Part shown: in pieces, positions 1,276-32,785 of the stretch | Position numbering within the stretch: the first letter of the stretch is position 1 | Layout: every line of letters starts with the position of its first letter | Source: Acidobacteriota bacterium | GTDB taxonomy: Bacteria; Acidobacteriota; Terriglobia; Acidiferrales; UBA7541 | Reading direction: 5' to 3' | DNA length: 38,105 bases | Assembly: GCA_003224145.1 (NCBI GenBank) | Contig: QHYN01000212.1 | Coordinates: 1 to 38,105, forward strand | Translations under genes and position numbers: made by a program | The notes under the pieces: model-generated | Databases searched by the model: none | Seen by the model: only the letters and a program-made list of their open reading frames with translations | What the model was told of the DNA's origin: nothing

Positions 1276-2679
1276 CTAAGTTTGGGCACTGCGAACCGAC
1301 AACTTCGCCGCCTCCCATGCTGCGATGCCTCCCGCAATTTCACAGACGGGATCAAATCCACTGCGTTGCAACAAGCTCGCGGCGATGGACGACCGGTAGC
1401 CCCCCGCACAGTAGACCAGCAGGGGACGGTTTTTCGGCAGCGTTTCCAGATGTTCCGTCAGGTGATTGAGCGGAATGCCCAAGCTGCCGCCAATATGTTT
1501 CTGCTCACGCTCACGCGGCGTGCGGACGTCGATGGCCAGCGGCGGCTGGCTCGATGACAGGAGTTCCTCCGCGAATGGTGCGCTGAGGTGCTCGGTGAAG
1601 GCGACAAGGTCCGGCCGTGATTCGAGACTGCGCATTCCGTTCTGCAAATATCCGGCCACGTGATCGAACCCGATGCGTCCCAGCCGGATGGCCGATTCAT
1701 TCTCCCGGCCAGGGTCCGCGATGATGACGATCGGATGCGTTCGATCGAGCACCGTTCCGGCCCACGTTGCGTACTGACCGCCGAGGCCGATGTTGACGCT
1801 TCCCGCCAGGTGCGCCGCCCCAAATTCGTCCGGATCACGGGTGTCGAGGATCTGCGCGCCCTCTGCTTGCAATGCCAGCAACTCGTCGAGCGTGAGCGGC
1901 TTCAACTCGCGCTCCAGCGCCTCTTCGAGCGTAGGTCGCTCTTTACTGTTCAGCACCACATCATAGACGAAATAGGGCGGAGCCTCGGGTTGGTCGGCGG
2001 TTACCAGCTCTATGAACGCTTTCTTGCTCATCGGCTGCAGGGCGTAATTCAACCGCCGCTGCTCTCCTATAGTCGAAACCGTTTCCTTGCTGATGGCCTT
2101 CCCACAGAGCGACCCGGCGCCGTGAGCCGGATAGACCAGACTCGCGTCCGGCAACGGCAACAACTTGGATTGCAAGGAATCGAAGAGTAGCGCGCCAAGA
2201 TCCGTAGCGGACCAGCCCAGTGCCGCACGAAGATCCGGCCGTCCCACATCGCCAATGAACAATGTGTCGCCGGTCAAGACCGCGTGCGGCTCACTTTCGC
2301 TCCGATGGAGGTCGTAAACAACGATCGAAATGGATTCGGGGGTGTGACCCGGCGTTTCGAGAACCTTCAGTCGCACCCTCCCGAACTCGACCACATCGCC
2401 GCCTCCGAGCGGTGTAAACCGGTATTCTGCCTGCGCTTTGACACCAAGGTAAATCGTTGCGCCCACGCGATCCCGAAGCTCCAAATGACCAGCCACAAAG
2501 TCGGCGTGTAGATGGGTCAGGAACACGTGCTTGATTTGCAGCCTATGTTCGGCTGCAAATGCCAGATATTGCTCGATGTCCCGTTGCGGATCGACGACGG
2601 TAGCGGTGCCCGTCTCCTCGTCACCGATCAAGTACGAAGCGTGGGCGAGGCAATTCAGGTAGAACTGCTTGAGGATCAC
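1276..2679 (-). CDS. Metallo-beta-lactamase / tandem rhodanese protein (persulfide dioxygenase-like)
   Basis: 467 residues. The N-terminal MBL domain carries THLHADFVAGH (H56, H58, D60, H65), H112 in ETPGHTPES, D138 in LTGDTLF and H186 in YPAHGAG, the ligand set of ETHE1/SDO-type persulfide dioxygenases. Two rhodanese domains follow (about 265-350 and 375-460). The second has the active-site loop VYCAGGYRS with C424. In the first the equivalent position reads IIADPGRE and has no cysteine, so it is probably structural. The layout resembles CstB and related enzymes that oxidise persulfide and handle thiosulfate/sulfane sulfur in the cytoplasm. The start is GTG at 2679 behind a GAGGA element. 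A promoter lies directly upstream. The exact reaction is inferred from family. Confidence 0.85.
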   Translation of the reverse strand: MILKQFYLNCLAHASYLIGDEETGTATVVDPQRDIEQYLAFAAEHRLQIKHVFLTHLHADFVAGHLELRDRVGATIYLGVKAQAEYRFTPLGGGDVVEFGRVRLKVLETPGHTPESISIVVYDLHRSESEPHAVLTGDTLFIGDVGRPDLRAALGWSATDLGALLFDSLQSKLLPLPDASLVYPAHGAGSLCGKAISKETVSTIGEQRRLNYALQPMSKKAFIELVTADQPEAPPYFVYDVVLNSKERPTLEEALERELKPLTLDELLALQAEGAQILDTRDPDEFGAAHLAGSVNIGLGGQYATWAGTVLDRTHPIVIIADPGRENESAIRLGRIGFDHVAGYLQNGMRSLESRPDLVAFTEHLSAPFAEELLSSSQPPLAIDVRTPREREQKHIGGSLGIPLNHLTEHLETLPKNRPLLVYCAGGYRSSIAASLLQRSGFDPVCEIAGGIAAWEAAKLSVRSAQT

Positions 2680-2709
2680 GCTGCACCATCCTCATTTCAA
2701 GTCATGAAC

Positions 2710-2738
2710 ACTATACGACGACCGCGGCTCTTCGTCAT
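2710..2738 (-). promoter_or_regulatory. Sigma-70-like promoter for the MBL-rhodanese gene
   Basis: On the minus strand ATGACG (2733-2738) is followed after exactly 17 bases by TATAGT (2710-2715). Transcription would start near 2703, about 25 bases before the GTG start. It suggests the sulfur enzyme is transcribed separately from the PilZ/DnaJ gene upstream. Confidence 0.5.
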
Positions 2739-2780
2739 TCCAGCAGCGAACTTAACATTCTGCTGAAAAAGTATCTCTTG

Positions 2781-4691
2781 TTAAGCCTTTCGCCGGAACA
2801 GATTGGAGACAAATTGAAAGGATTTTTCCAGTTGATCTTCCTGCTTGGGTTCAAGCTCGCTTAAGCGTTCGAGGGCCTTGTTGTGCTCTGGATCGATGTC
2901 GAGAATCTTCCGGTATAGAGGAATCGCCCGCCATGGCAATCGCATCAGCTCGTAGAGTTCTCCAAACTGAAAGTACGTCGAGGTGTTCCACGGGTCCAGT
3001 TCGATAGCTTTCTCAAAATGGTGAGCGGCTTCTTGGCGGTACTGCGGCACAGCCGCCAAACTCCGCGCCAGGAGCGCCTGGTGCTTGGCCACCTCCGGAG
3101 CGATCTCCACGCACTTGCGGAGCCACAGAATCGATCCCGCAAAATTGTGCGCACGCAAGCATTGTTTGGCTCGAACGAGGCAGTCGTCCACAGTTCTTTG
3201 GCTTTCGGTCTTGCCTTGGCCGAGAGTGAAAGCGCCTGCCTCGGCAAGCTGCTTGTCGTAACTCGCGCGCTTCTTCTCGTCCGCAAGGGTCTTGTAAGCC
3301 GTCGTCAGTTGGCTCATTAAATCCTGCAACAATCCGAGTCGTTCGCTTTGTCCCATATGCCGGTCGGGGTGAAATTTCCGGGCCAGACGATGGAAACTTT
3401 CCTTGATGTGACTCGGGAGCGCGCTGCCGGTAACCCCTAGTAGCTCGTAGTAGGTTCCCTTTTCCGCGAGGTCCAGCAGCCTGCGGACTTCTTCCTCAAA
3501 TTGACTTTGGCTCGGCCACTCCTCCAGAGGCCGTCGTTCGGGCTCTGGAGGAGGAGTAGTCGGGACAGCGGGCTCCTGTTCCGATGGCGTACCGTGCGGC
3601 ACGCAAACAACGGCTCCTAAGACCATCAAGCTGTAGAGAGCGCGGGTGGCCTTGGCCTTCGGTAGCCCGCTCTGGCGGAGCAGTTCCCGAGCGGCTACGA
3701 CTCCAGAGAGCGCACCAAGCAGACTTCTTTCACCTTCGCTAAGCTCCACGACCTGGTAACGCTGCAACGGGTCAGATGTAAGCTCTACATATAGCTCACC
3801 GTCTTCTGCGAGATGGTCCAGAGGCAGGTCATTGGCTCGGTACACCGCCTCCAGCAGGAGTTTCCCTAACGGCACCGGTATGCCGATTTCCGGAACAATG
3901 TTTTTCTCGAGAGAGCTGAAGAAATAATATCGGCACGAAGGATAGTCCAGCACCGAAGAGGTGATCTGTGTAAGCTGCCGCTGTACCCAGCCGGCAATTT
4001 CCTCAACGCTGCACACGCCCATCTCAGCAATGGCGGAGCCAAGGCGCTGGCCCGTGCGCACCAGTTCGGAAGCTTCTTCGAACTGGCTTTGCGTCAAGGC
4101 GCCCGCTCGCAGCATCATCTCACCCAAGCTGTCTTGCCGGTCACTGCTGGTCGCGAAGATCAGCTGCCCGCTGTCGAAAAAAAGCTGCTTTTCAACACGG
4201 CCCAAAACAAGTTGCAGCTTACCGGTTAGCCGGGCGGAATAGATTTTGTTGAGCAGCGCGAACAACTCGTGATGGCCCCTGATTTCCCCGGAGTCCAGGG
4301 GTTGCCCATCTTGGGTGAACCAGCTCGAGGGGGCAGCAACTACCTCTTTCCGCTGTTCTTTCTCGAGTTGCTGGGCAAACCGATACAGCCGTGCCCGAGA
4401 GTCCGAGTCCATATGCACGAACTGCATGCCCATGCCTCGGCCAGCTCTTCCGTGTCGAATGATGGCGCGCCCGCGCACCTCTCCGCTTGGAGCGTCGAAA
4501 ACGAATTGAACCATCGTTCCTACGGGTAATGGCTCGGTTACGAAGAGAAACACGCCGCCCAGGCTCAACGTGTCTACGGTCGAGGCATTTCGCTTTCCAC
4601 CGCCCTGCCAGCCCACCAGCGTCCCTTTGGGCGCGTTAAACCGCCTAGAACGTCGCCGGTCTGGCTTTGTTTTCTCGATGGGTGGATTCAC
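2781..4691 (-). CDS. PilZ - DUF4388 - DnaJ - TPR multidomain protein
   Basis: 636 residues with four recognisable parts. A PilZ domain (about 10-110) has the arginine cluster RRRSRR at 12-17 and TLSLGG at 41-46, a variant of the (D/N)xSxxG cyclic-di-GMP motif. A DUF4388 (PATAN-like) region spans about 138-360 (FDSGQLIFATS, LGEMMLRAGALT). After a Pro/Glu-rich linker comes a J domain (about 413-480) with an intact HPD at 441-443, and then TPR repeats to about 620. No signal peptide or membrane helix is seen, so it is cytoplasmic. It may couple cyclic-di-GMP to DnaK recruitment or a motility/secretion complex; this is inference. DUF4388 proteins often accompany gliding or surface-motility systems, but none is encoded here. 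Confidence 0.85.
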   Translation of the reverse strand: MNPPIEKTKPDRRRSRRFNAPKGTLVGWQGGGKRNASTVDTLSLGGVFLFVTEPLPVGTMVQFVFDAPSGEVRGRAIIRHGRAGRGMGMQFVHMDSDSRARLYRFAQQLEKEQRKEVVAAPSSWFTQDGQPLDSGEIRGHHELFALLNKIYSARLTGKLQLVLGRVEKQLFFDSGQLIFATSSDRQDSLGEMMLRAGALTQSQFEEASELVRTGQRLGSAIAEMGVCSVEEIAGWVQRQLTQITSSVLDYPSCRYYFFSSLEKNIVPEIGIPVPLGKLLLEAVYRANDLPLDHLAEDGELYVELTSDPLQRYQVVELSEGERSLLGALSGVVAARELLRQSGLPKAKATRALYSLMVLGAVVCVPHGTPSEQEPAVPTTPPPEPERRPLEEWPSQSQFEEEVRRLLDLAEKGTYYELLGVTGSALPSHIKESFHRLARKFHPDRHMGQSERLGLLQDLMSQLTTAYKTLADEKKRASYDKQLAEAGAFTLGQGKTESQRTVDDCLVRAKQCLRAHNFAGSILWLRKCVEIAPEVAKHQALLARSLAAVPQYRQEAAHHFEKAIELDPWNTSTYFQFGELYELMRLPWRAIPLYRKILDIDPEHNKALERLSELEPKQEDQLEKSFQFVSNLFRRKA

Positions 4692-27406: not shown

Positions 27407-27979
27407 TCAAAAGAGGCCGGGCAAGAAACGGGGCTTGTGCCCCATGGCGGCGCGATATTCGGGATTGGCCATGAGCACGCCTTCTTCCGCTCGGATACGC
27501 ATGGACAACGCAGCGGCATAAACCAGCGAGGTTACGACCGCGGTAATCCATGCCGTGTGGATCAGCGGAAGCGAAATCATCTCCAGGATCACTCCGGTGT
27601 AATTGGGGTGCCGCACGAAACGAAACGGCCCTGTGGTCACAACACCGAGTTGCGTCGAGTCCATGACTTGCACGCTCCAGAGGTCGCCCAGGGTCCGAAC
27701 GACCCACAGCCGCACTAAGTTAGATGCAAGAAATAGCGCGAGCATCAGCCCTCCCAGGAGCGGAAGAAACGGGCGCTTGAGCAAAACGACTTCGGCGGCG
27801 GCGCCGACCAGCACGCCGGTGTGAACGGCCACCATCCACTTGAAGTGCGGCTCCGGGACGCGCACAGCCCCGCCGGCCAGCATGCGTTGCTGATGCTGCC
27901 GCGAGATTCTCAGCTCTACGAGGCGGAGCAGTCCCACCGCGGCGAGCAAAGCCAGGTAGAGATAGACGCTCAGGCCCAT
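27407..27979 (-). CDS. ICMT-family membrane methyltransferase
   Basis: 190 residues from the ATG at 27979, overlapping the polyketide synthase stop by 10 bases. It has several membrane segments (YLYLALLAAVGLLRLVEL; VAVHTGVLVGAAAEVVLL; LLGGLMLALFLASNLVRL; TAWITAVVTSLVYAAAL). The SAM-binding signature of the isoprenylcysteine carboxyl methyltransferase family is GPFRFVRHPNYTGV (117-130) with RAEEGVL in the C-terminal helix. Small proteins of this family next to type III polyketide synthases (BpsB in Bacillus, SrsB in Streptomyces) O-methylate alkylpyrones or alkylresorcinols, so this is the likely role. It acts in the membrane. Confidence 0.88.
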   Translation of the reverse strand: MGLSVYLYLALLAAVGLLRLVELRISRQHQQRMLAGGAVRVPEPHFKWMVAVHTGVLVGAAAEVVLLKRPFLPLLGGLMLALFLASNLVRLWVVRTLGDLWSVQVMDSTQLGVVTTGPFRFVRHPNYTGVILEMISLPLIHTAWITAVVTSLVYAAALSMRIRAEEGVLMANPEYRAAMGHKPRFLPGLF

Positions 27980-29064
27980 TGGAGCAACAGAAATTCGGCG
28001 CTGAACCCAGGACCGAAGGCGGCTGCGAGGGCATATTCGCCGTCCTGAAGCGGCCGCTTCTCGAGCCATTCCTGGAGGATGAAAAGAATGGTGGCGCTGG
28101 AGAGGTTTCCGACGTTGCCGAGGATGTCCCACGATGGCTTCGTGTCGCACTTGCACAAGCCCAGCTCGGATTCGATGTTTGCGAGCAAACGCGCTCCGCC
28201 CGGATGCAGAATCCAGCCCTTGATGTCTTCTCGTTTTCGGCCGTTGCGCTGGAGAAAACCCTCAACCAGCCCGCGGATTTTCCCCCCGATCATTTCCGGA
28301 ACCTCTTTGTCCAACAGAATATGGAAACCGGAATCGCGGAGATCAAATCCCATCGCGTAGAGTGAATCAGGAAAAGTGTAAGTTTCCGAAACGAGAATTT
28401 TCGGCCCGCGCGCTTCTTTTCCACTGACGATCACGGCGGCCGCGCCATCTCCAAAAAGAATCGAAGAAATCAGATTGGCCTGGGAACTGTCCTTTCGCTG
28501 AAAGGTGAGCGAGGGCAATTCCACAGAGATGATCAGGACGTTTCCGCCCGGATGTGCTTTCAGATAATCGGCTGCGCGGCCCAGCGCCATGGCTCCTGCG
28601 GCGCAGCCCAACTCGGTGAACGGCATGCGGCGGACATTCGGGCGAAACCCCATCATATGGATGAGGTGCGCGTCGAGCGAAGGAATCATGAATCCGGTGC
28701 AGGAGACGGTGATGATGAGATCAATGTCCTCCGGCTTGAGCCCGGCGCGTTCAAGACATTTTTCTGCAGCCTCGCGGCCGAGCTTCACCGCGTGTTCGAT
28801 GTACTCGTTGTTGGTTTTCGACAGGGCGCGCGGCTCGATGGTGTAATCGATGGGAAAGATGGAATGCCGTTTGTGAACCTGCGCGTTGTCGACAATGCTC
28901 ATCATAGCTTCGAGGCGCCGCTCGGGGATGTCGAAAACGCGGCCCATGTAATACTTTACGTCGTCGCGAGTGATGGTGTGGGGCGGAAGCGCCGTAGCGG
29001 TCGCGGCAATGGTCGGATGCGCTGCTCCGGCAGCTTCTTTGGGAGAGTTGCTCGGCGAATCCAT
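27970..29064 (-). CDS. Type III polyketide synthase (chalcone synthase-like)
   Basis: 364 residues from the ATG at 29064 (GAGGAG 4 bases upstream). The catalytic triad is complete: C154 in ELGCAAGA, H286 in GWILHPGG and N319 in GNVGNLSSAT. FGDGAAAVIV is also conserved. Bacterial members with an ICMT-type partner gene (BpsA-BpsB, SrsA-SrsB) condense a long-chain acyl-CoA with malonyl-CoA to alkylpyrones or alkylresorcinols. The same arrangement, with a 10-base overlap, is seen here, so an alkyl-polyketide lipid is likely; chain length and ring type cannot be read from sequence. The divergent hydrolase gene starts 276 bases away. Confidence 0.9.
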   Translation of the reverse strand: MDSPSNSPKEAAGAAHPTIAATATALPPHTITRDDVKYYMGRVFDIPERRLEAMMSIVDNAQVHKRHSIFPIDYTIEPRALSKTNNEYIEHAVKLGREAAEKCLERAGLKPEDIDLIITVSCTGFMIPSLDAHLIHMMGFRPNVRRMPFTELGCAAGAMALGRAADYLKAHPGGNVLIISVELPSLTFQRKDSSQANLISSILFGDGAAAVIVSGKEARGPKILVSETYTFPDSLYAMGFDLRDSGFHILLDKEVPEMIGGKIRGLVEGFLQRNGRKREDIKGWILHPGGARLLANIESELGLCKCDTKPSWDILGNVGNLSSATILFILQEWLEKRPLQDGEYALAAAFGPGFSAEFLLLQWA

Positions 29065-29340
29065 CAGTCTCCTCAGAGTGCAAAGATAAAGCTAGTGGCT
29101 GGCCACCATGTGAGCCATTTGGATGCAACACCCTTCCGAGCGGGCTGCTATGGTGACCATGACTTTACAACATTTCATGCAAGAACCGCACTATTTTGCA
29201 TGGGCTCCGCGTGGCCAATTCCCCGATCACGCTGGCCTTGATTCGGAGACCGCCATCGCACGCGTAATATTCCTCGAATTGGTGGCGCTGGCCATTCTTC
29301 CCTGCGTAAAATGCCCGAGGAGTGCCGGATGGAGGCTTTT

Positions 29341-30921
29341 GTGATTCGTCAATTCGTTTTATCTCTCCTCCTGTTGGTGATTACGAATCTGTCGGCGGCG
29401 GGCCAGCAAGCACCACCTTTCGCGACAGCCGAAGGCAATTTCGTCGCCAAGAATTTCAAATTTCAATCGGGAGAATCCTTGCCGGGGCTGCGCCTTCATT
29501 ACACGACGTTGGGGAAGCCCGCGCGCGACGCGCAAGGCCGCGTCACCAATGCGGTCTTGATTCTGCACGGCACCGGCGGCACCGGTCATCAATTCCTTCA
29601 ACCCATTTTTGCGGCCGAACTGTTCGGGCCGGGGCAACTCCTCGACGCTTCGCGCTACTACATCATTCTTCCCGACGGCATCGGCCATGGAGAATCCTCA
29701 AAGCCCAGCGACGGGCTGCACGCGCGCTTTGCGCAATACGACTACGACGACATGGTTGCCGCGCATCATCGCTTGCTCACCGAAGGGCTGGGCGTGAATC
29801 ATTTGCGCCTGGTCATGGGCACTTCGATGGGCTGCATGCATTCCTTTGTGTGGGGAGAGACGTATCCCGATTTCATGGATGCATTGATGCCACTCGCTTG
29901 CCTGCCCGTACAAATCGCAGGACGCAACCGAGTGTGGCGAAAAATGGTGATGGACGCGATTCGCAACGATCCGGAATGGAAGGACGGGGAATATTCTTCG
30001 GAGCCGCAGCAGGCGCTGCGCACGGCGCTCGATCTGTTGCTGATTGCGGGTAGCGCGCCGCCGCACATGCAGAAAACTTACCCGACGCGCGATGCCGCAG
30101 ACAAATACCTCGACGATTATTCCAAGATGCGCTCTGCCGGCCTGGATGCGAACGACCTGTTGTACGCGGTGAACGCGTCGCGCAATTACGACCCTTCGCC
30201 GCAGCTTGAAAAAATCACCGCGCCGGTGATGTATATCAACTCCGCGGACGATTTTATCAATCCGCCGGAACTAGGCGTCGCCGAACGCGAGATCAAAAAG
30301 GTGAAAAACGGTCGTTTCGTCTTGCTGCCCATCAGCGACGAAACGCGCGGCCACGGCACCCACACCCGCGCCGCCGTCTGGAAGCAATACCTGGAAGAAC
30401 TGATGAACCGCTCAGCGGATGCCCATCGCCCGACGAGGGTTGCGGAGGAAACAATGAAATCGTCGAATGCAGCGACAGCCGAGGCGGAACTTCAGGCAGT
30501 GGAGAACGAGCGGCACAAAGCCAGCGTCGAGGGAGACTCAGACAAAATCGCCAGCATCATGACTGATGATTATCTGCAGACCGACATTTACGGGCACGTG
30601 CAGAACAAGGCCACATGGCTGGACGAATATTTCAAACCCCTCGCCCAGTTGATCAAAGCCGGCAAATTCCGTTGGGAGGTGTTTGAAGAGAAGGACGCGC
30701 AATTTCGCGTGCACGGCGACAACGCGATTGTTGTGGGCGACCTGGAGCTAAAGGGTGTGGGTGCTCGGCTGAACCGCGAACGGCATACCTGGGAAGCCGA
30801 TCCGAATGCGAGTTTTGGTGGAACGCTGCGATTTACACATGTTTATGTTCGGCGCGACGGCAGATGGCTGCTTGCCGCGCTTCACAACTCCGTGCCTCAG
30901 CCGATGACAACCGGCAAGTAA
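29341..30921 (+). CDS. Secreted alpha/beta hydrolase fused to a DUF4440/SnoaL domain
   Basis: 526 residues. The start is the GTG at 29341, 5 bases after GGAGG; an ATG at 29329 lacks such spacing. A signal peptide is clear (MIRQFVLSLLLLVITNLSAA). Residues 45-355 form a MetX-like alpha/beta hydrolase with the nucleophile S162 in MGTSMGCMH, an acid in YINSADDFINP (D303 or D304) and H338 in RGHGTH. From about 372, MKSSNAATAEAELQAVENER opens an NTF2-like DUF4440 domain that ends GGTLRFTHVYVRRDGRWLLA. The second half has its own ribosome-binding site (see the next entry). Despite the MetX likeness, export argues against a role in methionine synthesis. Confidence 0.85.
   Translation: MIRQFVLSLLLLVITNLSAAGQQAPPFATAEGNFVAKNFKFQSGESLPGLRLHYTTLGKPARDAQGRVTNAVLILHGTGGTGHQFLQPIFAAELFGPGQLLDASRYYIILPDGIGHGESSKPSDGLHARFAQYDYDDMVAAHHRLLTEGLGVNHLRLVMGTSMGCMHSFVWGETYPDFMDALMPLACLPVQIAGRNRVWRKMVMDAIRNDPEWKDGEYSSEPQQALRTALDLLLIAGSAPPHMQKTYPTRDAADKYLDDYSKMRSAGLDANDLLYAVNASRNYDPSPQLEKITAPVMYINSADDFINPPELGVAEREIKKVKNGRFVLLPISDETRGHGTHTRAAVWKQYLEELMNRSADAHRPTRVAEETMKSSNAATAEAELQAVENERHKASVEGDSDKIASIMTDDYLQTDIYGHVQNKATWLDEYFKPLAQLIKAGKFRWEVFEEKDAQFRVHGDNAIVVGDLELKGVGARLNRERHTWEADPNASFGGTLRFTHVYVRRDGRWLLAALHNSVPQPMTTGK
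30444..30456 (+). promoter_or_regulatory. Internal ribosome-binding site and ATG before the DUF4440 half
   Basis: GGAGG (30444-30448) stands 5 bases before ATG (30454-30456), in frame, exactly where the DUF4440 domain starts (codon 372). It could yield a separate protein of about 155 residues without a signal peptide. It may also be a remnant of an ancestral two-gene arrangement. Confidence 0.55.
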
Positions 30922-30949
30922 GAAAGCAGAACGGTGAGAGGCTCACCTT

Positions 30950-32785
30950 TTATCCCGCGGCTTCCTGGCTGGCGCGGATTTCCTGCCAGCGGCGTGGGCG
31001 CTTGTTGGCATTCAACACTTTTTTGCGCAAGCGGATGGTCTTCGGCGTGATCTCCACGTATTCGTCGTCGGCGATGAATTCGATGGCCTGCTCGAGGCTC
31101 AGCTCGCGGTGCGGAATCAGCCGGATGGCTTCGTCCGCGCTCGAGGAGCGCATGTTGGTCTGCTTCTTTTCCTTGGTCACGTTCACGTCCATGTCCTGCT
31201 CGCGCGAATTTTCGCCGAGGATCATGCCTTCGTAGACGTCCACGCCGGGACCCACAAACAGGTCGCCCCGTTCCTGCAAGTTCCACAGCGCGAACGCTGT
31301 CGAGACCCCCGCGCGATCCGCGACCAGCGCGCCCGTCGGACGCAGCGCCATTTCCCCGCCATATTCCGTCCAGCCTTCGAAGATCGAGTGAATCAGCGCC
31401 GTGCCGCGAGTATCCGTCAGCAACTGGCTGCGCAATCCAATCAGGCCGCGCGACGGAATCTTGAAGTCCAGCCGCACGCGCCCCGAGCCGTGATTGCTCA
31501 TCTTGGTCATCTCGCCGCGGCGGCCGCCGATGGTTTCCATGATGATGCCGATGAACTTCTCAGGGATGTCGATCACCAGGCGCTCGACCGGCTCGAGCTT
31601 CATTCCGTTTTCCGTGCGGGTGACGATTTCCGGCTTGCCCACCATCAATTCGAAGCCTTCGCGCCGCATTGTTTCGATCAAGATCGCGAGCTGCAACTCG
31701 CCGCGCCCCAGCACGCGAAACGATTCCGGCGTGTCCGTATCTTCCACACGAATGGAAACGTTGGTCAGCAGCTCCTTCTGAAGCCGGTCGCGCAGGTCGC
31801 GGGAGGTCAGGTAATTTCCTTCGCGGCCGGACAGCGGACCGTTGTTGACGGTGAAAATCATCGCTAGCGTTGGCTCGTCGATTAGCAGGGGCTCAAGCGG
31901 GGCAGGGTTTTCGAGCGAAGTCACGCTCTCGCCGATCTGAATCCCCTCCACACCGGCGATGGCCACGATATCGCCCGCAGGGACGCTCTCCGCCTCGTCC
32001 CGCTCCAGTCCGCGGAAGGTAAAAAGCTTGGTGATTTTCGTCGGCTCGATTTTTCCGTTCAACTTGCCGATGCCCACTTCTGAACCGCGGTGCAGCGTGC
32101 CGTTGAAGACGCGCCCAATGGCAATTCTTCCCAGAAAGTCGCTGTAATCAAGGTTCAGCACCTGGATTTGCAGTACGCCGCCGGGATCGCCCGTTGGAGC
32201 CGGGATATGCTCCACGATGGCTTCGAAGAGCGGCAGCAAGTCTTTGGAAGGATCTCCCTGTTTGCGGTGCGCGACGCCCTCGCGCGCATTGGTGTAAATC
32301 ACCGGGAAGTCAAGCTGGTCTTCGGTGGCGTCGAGATCGATGAACAAATCGTAGATTTCGTCGAGAACTTCCTTGGGGCGGGCGTCGCCTCTGTCAATCT
32401 TGTTCAGCACAATCACCGGAGGCAGCTTTGCCGCCAATGCTTTTTGCAGCACGTAGCGCGTTTGCGGCAACGGGCCTTCGCTGGCGTCCACAAGAACGAC
32501 CACGCCATCGACCAATCGCAACGCGCGCTCGACTTCCCCACCGAAATCGCTGTGGCCAGGAGTATCCACGATGTTGATTTTCGTGCCGCGAAAAAAGAGC
32601 GCGGTGTTCTTCGCCAGAATGGTGATGCCGCGCTCGCGCTCCAGTTCGTTGGAATCCATCACGCGCTCGACAACCGCTTCGTTGGCGCGGAAAATGCCGC
32701 TCTGCCTCAGCATGGCGTCGACCAAGGTGGTTTTGCCGTGGTCCACGTGCGCGATGATGGCGATGTTGCGAATTGCTTGGCTCAT
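30950..32785 (-). CDS. typA: Ribosome-associated GTPase TypA/BipA
   Basis: 611 residues, the normal length. G1 is AHVDHGKTT (12-20), switch I has [10 protein letters not shown]3 is [16 protein letters not shown] and G4 is NKID. The BipA-specific C-terminal part is present ([51 protein letters not shown]). It is a translation GTPase of the EF-G family that binds 70S ribosomes and supports 50S assembly and stress or cold adaptation. It converges on the hydrolase-DUF4440 gene with 28 bases between stops. The ribosome-binding site is GAGGATC, close to the ATG. Confidence 0.96.

Follow-up and report, generated by a model that had tools for sequence, protein, structure and literature searches.

A PRK06489-type hydrolase gene fused in frame to a DUF4440 domain, with a Shine-Dalgarno-like motif and ATG at the junction

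The fused gene and its surroundings

The window, by which we mean the whole 38,105-nucleotide stretch of DNA analyzed here, contains a plus-strand reading frame that runs from 29311 to 30921 without a stop codon and in which an alpha/beta hydrolase and a DUF4440 domain share one frame across their junction. The gene itself (29329..30921, +) encodes 530 aa in the order hydrolase, linker, DUF4440. Its start is taken from the congeners, where a conserved GAGG stands upstream of an ATG that aligns with ATG 29329 of the window; this is probably the hydrolase start, rather than GTG 29341, where a sequence-only reading of the same DNA had placed it. Counted from ATG 29329, the methionine at the junction (ATG 30454) is residue 376 of 530; the profile matches below are numbered from ATG 29311, which makes it residue 382.

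The protein begins with a signal-peptide-like N-terminus, MEAFVIRQFVLSLLLLVITNLSAAGQQ... (29329..29421, extent approximate, +), judged by eye rather than by a predictor, and congener hydrolases have similar hydrophobic N-termini. The hydrolase domain proper (29400..30420, +) is delimited by its profile matches and by the ends of the congener orthologs. It scores 545 bits over residues 18-369 against NCBIfam model NF005071 (PRK06489), whose curated cut-off is 305 bits, and matches Pfam Abhydrolase_1 at residues 80-322. The model for MetX homoserine O-acetyltransferase, TIGR01392, scores 100 bits, below its curated cut-off of 500 bits; homoserine O-acetyltransferases of solved structure, such as 5e4y, are distantly similar in sequence. 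The relatives are usually single-domain hydrolases that end near residue 370; here the frame continues into a 155-aa DUF4440 part (30454..30921, +) that has no signal peptide of its own and matches PF14534 at residues 394-521 over the full profile (positions 1-107 of 107), at 53.1-57.8 bits against a gathering cut-off of 25.2. The difference from the relatives is one of architecture and does not concern the hydrolase domain itself.

A consensus scan places a terminator-like hairpin, GGTGAGAGGCTCACC followed by TTTTAT, just past the gene (30933..30947, +). Beyond it lies the convergent gene typA (30950..32785, -), recognized from its ORF and from synteny in 17 congeners, which marks the insertion site discussed below. 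The scan recognized no sigma-70-like promoter in front of DUF4440, nor one elsewhere in 29000-31100, and for that reason the negative result says little. On the other side, divergent from the hydrolase, a chalcone-synthase-like (type III polyketide synthase) ORF (27970-29064, -) stands beside an isoprenylcysteine-methyltransferase-like ORF (27407-28156, -), both identified by eye.

The hydrolase end and the DUF4440 family in related genomes

Most congeners encode the hydrolase, at 68-86% identity and ending near residue 370 (61 genomes searched). All 23 in which the 3' end can be read have a stop codon at the homologous position, typically in the form WKQYLAELLEKSAH* about 11 codons before the place of the internal ATG, and none of the 23 has DUF4440 at that end. 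The window has the codon GCC (30421..30423, +) aligned with that stop, in an alignment that is loose past the last hydrolase codons. It is followed by the linker HRPTRVAEET (30424..30453, +), which is absent from congeners and may be the translated leader of a former DUF4440 gene.

Convergent typA lies 3' of the hydrolase in 17 congeners, 15 of them with a stop-to-stop gap of -4 to 209 bp. The spacer of genome G017, 780 bp long, contains a toxin-antitoxin pair, a MazE-like antitoxin with a PIN-domain protein (L005 2600-3380, G017:C73); the 524-bp spacer of G027 contains an unknown ORF on the minus strand, about 143-164 aa long and matching nothing in Pfam (L013, G027:C50, oriented ~2600-3130). 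The spacer thus varies between species in its small genes, and DUF4440 would be the insert of the window's own lineage. At two loci (L006 and L011) the hydrolase C-terminus is extended, and its stop codon and that of convergent typA share a few bases.

DUF4440 domains occur in all 36 genomes of the genus, at 5 to 26 each, and the closest to the window's domain within the genus is only 34% identical. The nearest found anywhere is a free-standing protein with a signal-peptide-like N-terminus in G646, elsewhere in the phylum, at 48%; searches of the genus, class, phylum, GTDB contigs and plasmids yielded no relative above that value. A recent duplication of one of the host's other DUF4440 genes (its genome has 12 family matches) was considered and rejected, as G000 gives no second protein match. 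Of a sample of 30 DUF4440 proteins from the genus, about 27 begin with a signal-peptide-like stretch, the sample consisting of high-scoring members, about one per genome, with hydrophobicity judged by a crude rule rather than a trained predictor. No signal peptide follows ATG 30454 in the window, and two free-standing DUF4440 proteins (L105 and L044) apparently lack one as well. The window's domain was either once a signal-less gene, or it now relies on the signal peptide of the hydrolase. With most of the genus's sampled DUF4440 proteins looking exported and the window's lacking a signal peptide, the product that does the work is more likely the exported fusion.

Among the genomes searched, the hydrolase-DUF4440 fusion is known from one only. 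Strong hydrolase matches occur in 142 genomes of the class sample and 52 of the phylum sample, two samples that overlap, and include no second example, in the sense that none matched past about residue 400 of the query and that the long frames of some genomes were read; a strongly diverged fused DUF4440 might escape such a search. Likewise, no homolog was found that retains both domains while lacking the GGAGG-ATG, no other fusion of the hydrolase to DUF4440 having turned up. Of the long hydrolase frames read in the class, two continue into cyclophilin, and the rest have either a normal end or a short tail of unknown nature. In the two, from G083 and G348 of another family of the class (L064/L080, G083:C148; L065/L081, G348:C596), the same hydrolase passes at the same point, without a change of frame, into a cyclophilin-type peptidyl-prolyl isomerase, which argues that the hydrolase C-terminus tolerates added domains. 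Within the genus, DUF4440 also lies in long open frames of 535-741 aa (G017:C194, G018:C120, G027:C5, G010:C167), so the genus may hold further fusions of DUF4440.

The junction motif and the origin of the fusion

A Shine-Dalgarno-like GGAGG (30444..30448, +) ends 5 bases before ATG 30454. The motif, its spacing, the common frame and the position at the domain junction are all as the sequence-only reading described them, and GGAGG-N5-ATG gives the gene one feature of dual-initiation genes, an internal in-frame start with a Shine-Dalgarno sequence. No other in-frame GGAGG-N4-9-ATG occurs in the whole fused gene. Codon shuffles of the gene contain at least one such motif somewhere in 9.7% of cases, and in 19% of synonymous shuffles it reappears at 30454. 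Counts from real genes are lower: 2 of 441 internal ATGs in 46 hydrolase/typA stretches of relatives have the motif in frame, as do 0 of 130 in the window's 19 long ORFs (2/571 combined). These counts give an empirical rate of roughly 1e-4 per codon and, for the stretch of approximately 27 codons that separates the old end of the hydrolase from the DUF4440 profile, an estimated chance of ~0.3%. Since GGAGG-ATG is so rare inside genes, its position at the junction is unlikely to have arisen by chance. As a ribosome-binding site, however, GGAGG is common in front of the genus's free-standing DUF4440 genes. It would appear, from the sequence, that GGAGG-ATG 30454 was the start of a former DUF4440 gene; that it is used today does not follow. 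At the 45th percentile for local RNA folding and the 75th for A-richness, the surroundings of 30454 are unremarkable and give no initiation signal, so nothing besides the motif argues for use of the start.

The reading we favor, and consider likely on the evidence of the sequence, is that a DUF4440 gene, bringing along its own ribosome-binding site, was inserted behind the hydrolase, that the hydrolase stop codon was lost, and that the old start is now a relic. The sequences themselves show the intact common frame, the stop codons of 23 congeners, the absence of DUF4440 there, the variable spacer and the complete domain. The proposal that two genes had been joined by loss of a stop codon, one of two offered by the sequence-only reading, is thereby supported, as every readable congener keeps the stop and lacks DUF4440 and the linker resembles a leader with a ribosome-binding site. 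We infer an order of events and two consequences, export and residual use of the internal start, as follows. A DUF4440 gene with its own GGAGG would have landed in the short, variable spacer between the hydrolase and convergent typA, and the hydrolase stop codon would have been lost during that insertion or afterwards. Ribosomes would then translate the old leader, now the linker ...AHRPTRVAEET, and continue into DUF4440, and a transcript running from upstream of 29329 to the hairpin at 30933-30947 would yield one exported protein of 530 aa. The relic ATG 30454 may still start some short, signal-less, 155-aa DUF4440 protein, as a leftover rather than as an evolved device for making two products. 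By chance alone, about one in five leaders of about 11 codons would keep the frame and contain no stop (estimated as 1/3 times (61/64)^11), and the joint frame therefore needs no selection. Such a fusion is a routine, ordinary kind of event.

How active the relic start may be is a separate matter from how the fusion arose, and the likelihoods given for the next two readings concern only the former and are not intended to sum to one with that of the origin. One reading is pure domain capture: the exported fusion alone matters, DUF4440 relies on the signal peptide of the hydrolase, and nothing starts at GGAGG-ATG. The prevalence of signal-peptide-like N-termini in the genus sample, set against their absence from the window's domain, speaks for it, as does the signal-peptide-like N-terminus of that domain's nearest relative; but family members without a signal peptide exist, and a consensus Shine-Dalgarno sequence and ATG in structure of average accessibility would normally permit some initiation. 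We regard capture as a serious possibility that stops a little short of probable. That the gene is instead a dual-product gene, whose internal start is in use, is kept by selection and supplies a cytoplasmic DUF4440 protein beside the exported fusion, seems unlikely. The strong GGAGG at optimal spacing, rare inside genes, would suit such a gene, the signal-less free-standing proteins L044 and L105 offer a parallel for the shorter product, and in-frame proteoform pairs that differ in location exist in bacteria (PMC11005335), which keeps a dual product plausible. However, a fusion seen in one genome has no conservation to cite, the motif is already accounted for as a former gene start, neither folding nor A-content stands out at the site, and most DUF4440 relatives look exported. 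It is similarly doubtful that a fresh fusion still works as two genes, one mRNA giving both the exported fusion and a cytoplasmic DUF4440.

The insertion reading itself faces two difficulties. In the closest free-standing relatives a signal peptide precedes the domain, and none follows ATG 30454; what was inserted may therefore not be a complete gene with its start at that ATG. The arrangement is also confined to one genome, a single draft of 359 contigs, which leaves room for a mistake of assembly or base calling at the junction: the genes could be separate and overlapping, with the hydrolase stop removed or the frame shifted by error. The stop present in every congener would fit this, and a one-base shift upstream would end the hydrolase at a TGA overlapping ATG 30454 (ATGA). 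Yet the flanking genes keep the order seen in the congeners, neither domain is damaged and nothing interrupts the frame at the junction, and we consider an artefact very unlikely.

Relation to known systems

If the insertion origin is right, the locus would be a clear natural example of the birth of a multidomain protein by insertion into a spacer, loss of a stop and translation of a leader-like linker; if the old start still works, it would capture an intermediate stage with two products. Neither domain is known to have a role that the fusion would account for. The PRK06489 hydrolases (NF005071), which we take to be related to MetX and esterase E22, include the window protein well above the cut-off, but no other sampled member has DUF4440 behind the hydrolase. 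To the NTF2/SnoaL-like DUF4440 family the window contributes a full-length profile match that is fused and signal-less, whereas the sampled proteins of the genus are mostly free-standing and exported-looking. The hydrolase-cyclophilin fusions of G083 and G348 share the hydrolase and the C-terminal joining point, but differ in the partner domain and occur in two genomes.

In-frame alternative initiation is documented by ribosome profiling for 26 curated genes in Salmonella (PMC11005335), and 42 conserved cases in E. coli are cited in the same work. The window gene has in common with such N-terminal proteoform pairs (e.g. SsaQ, ClpB; PMC11005335) an internal in-frame Shine-Dalgarno start and a possible change of location between products; it differs from them in that its internal start is known from sequence, in one genome.
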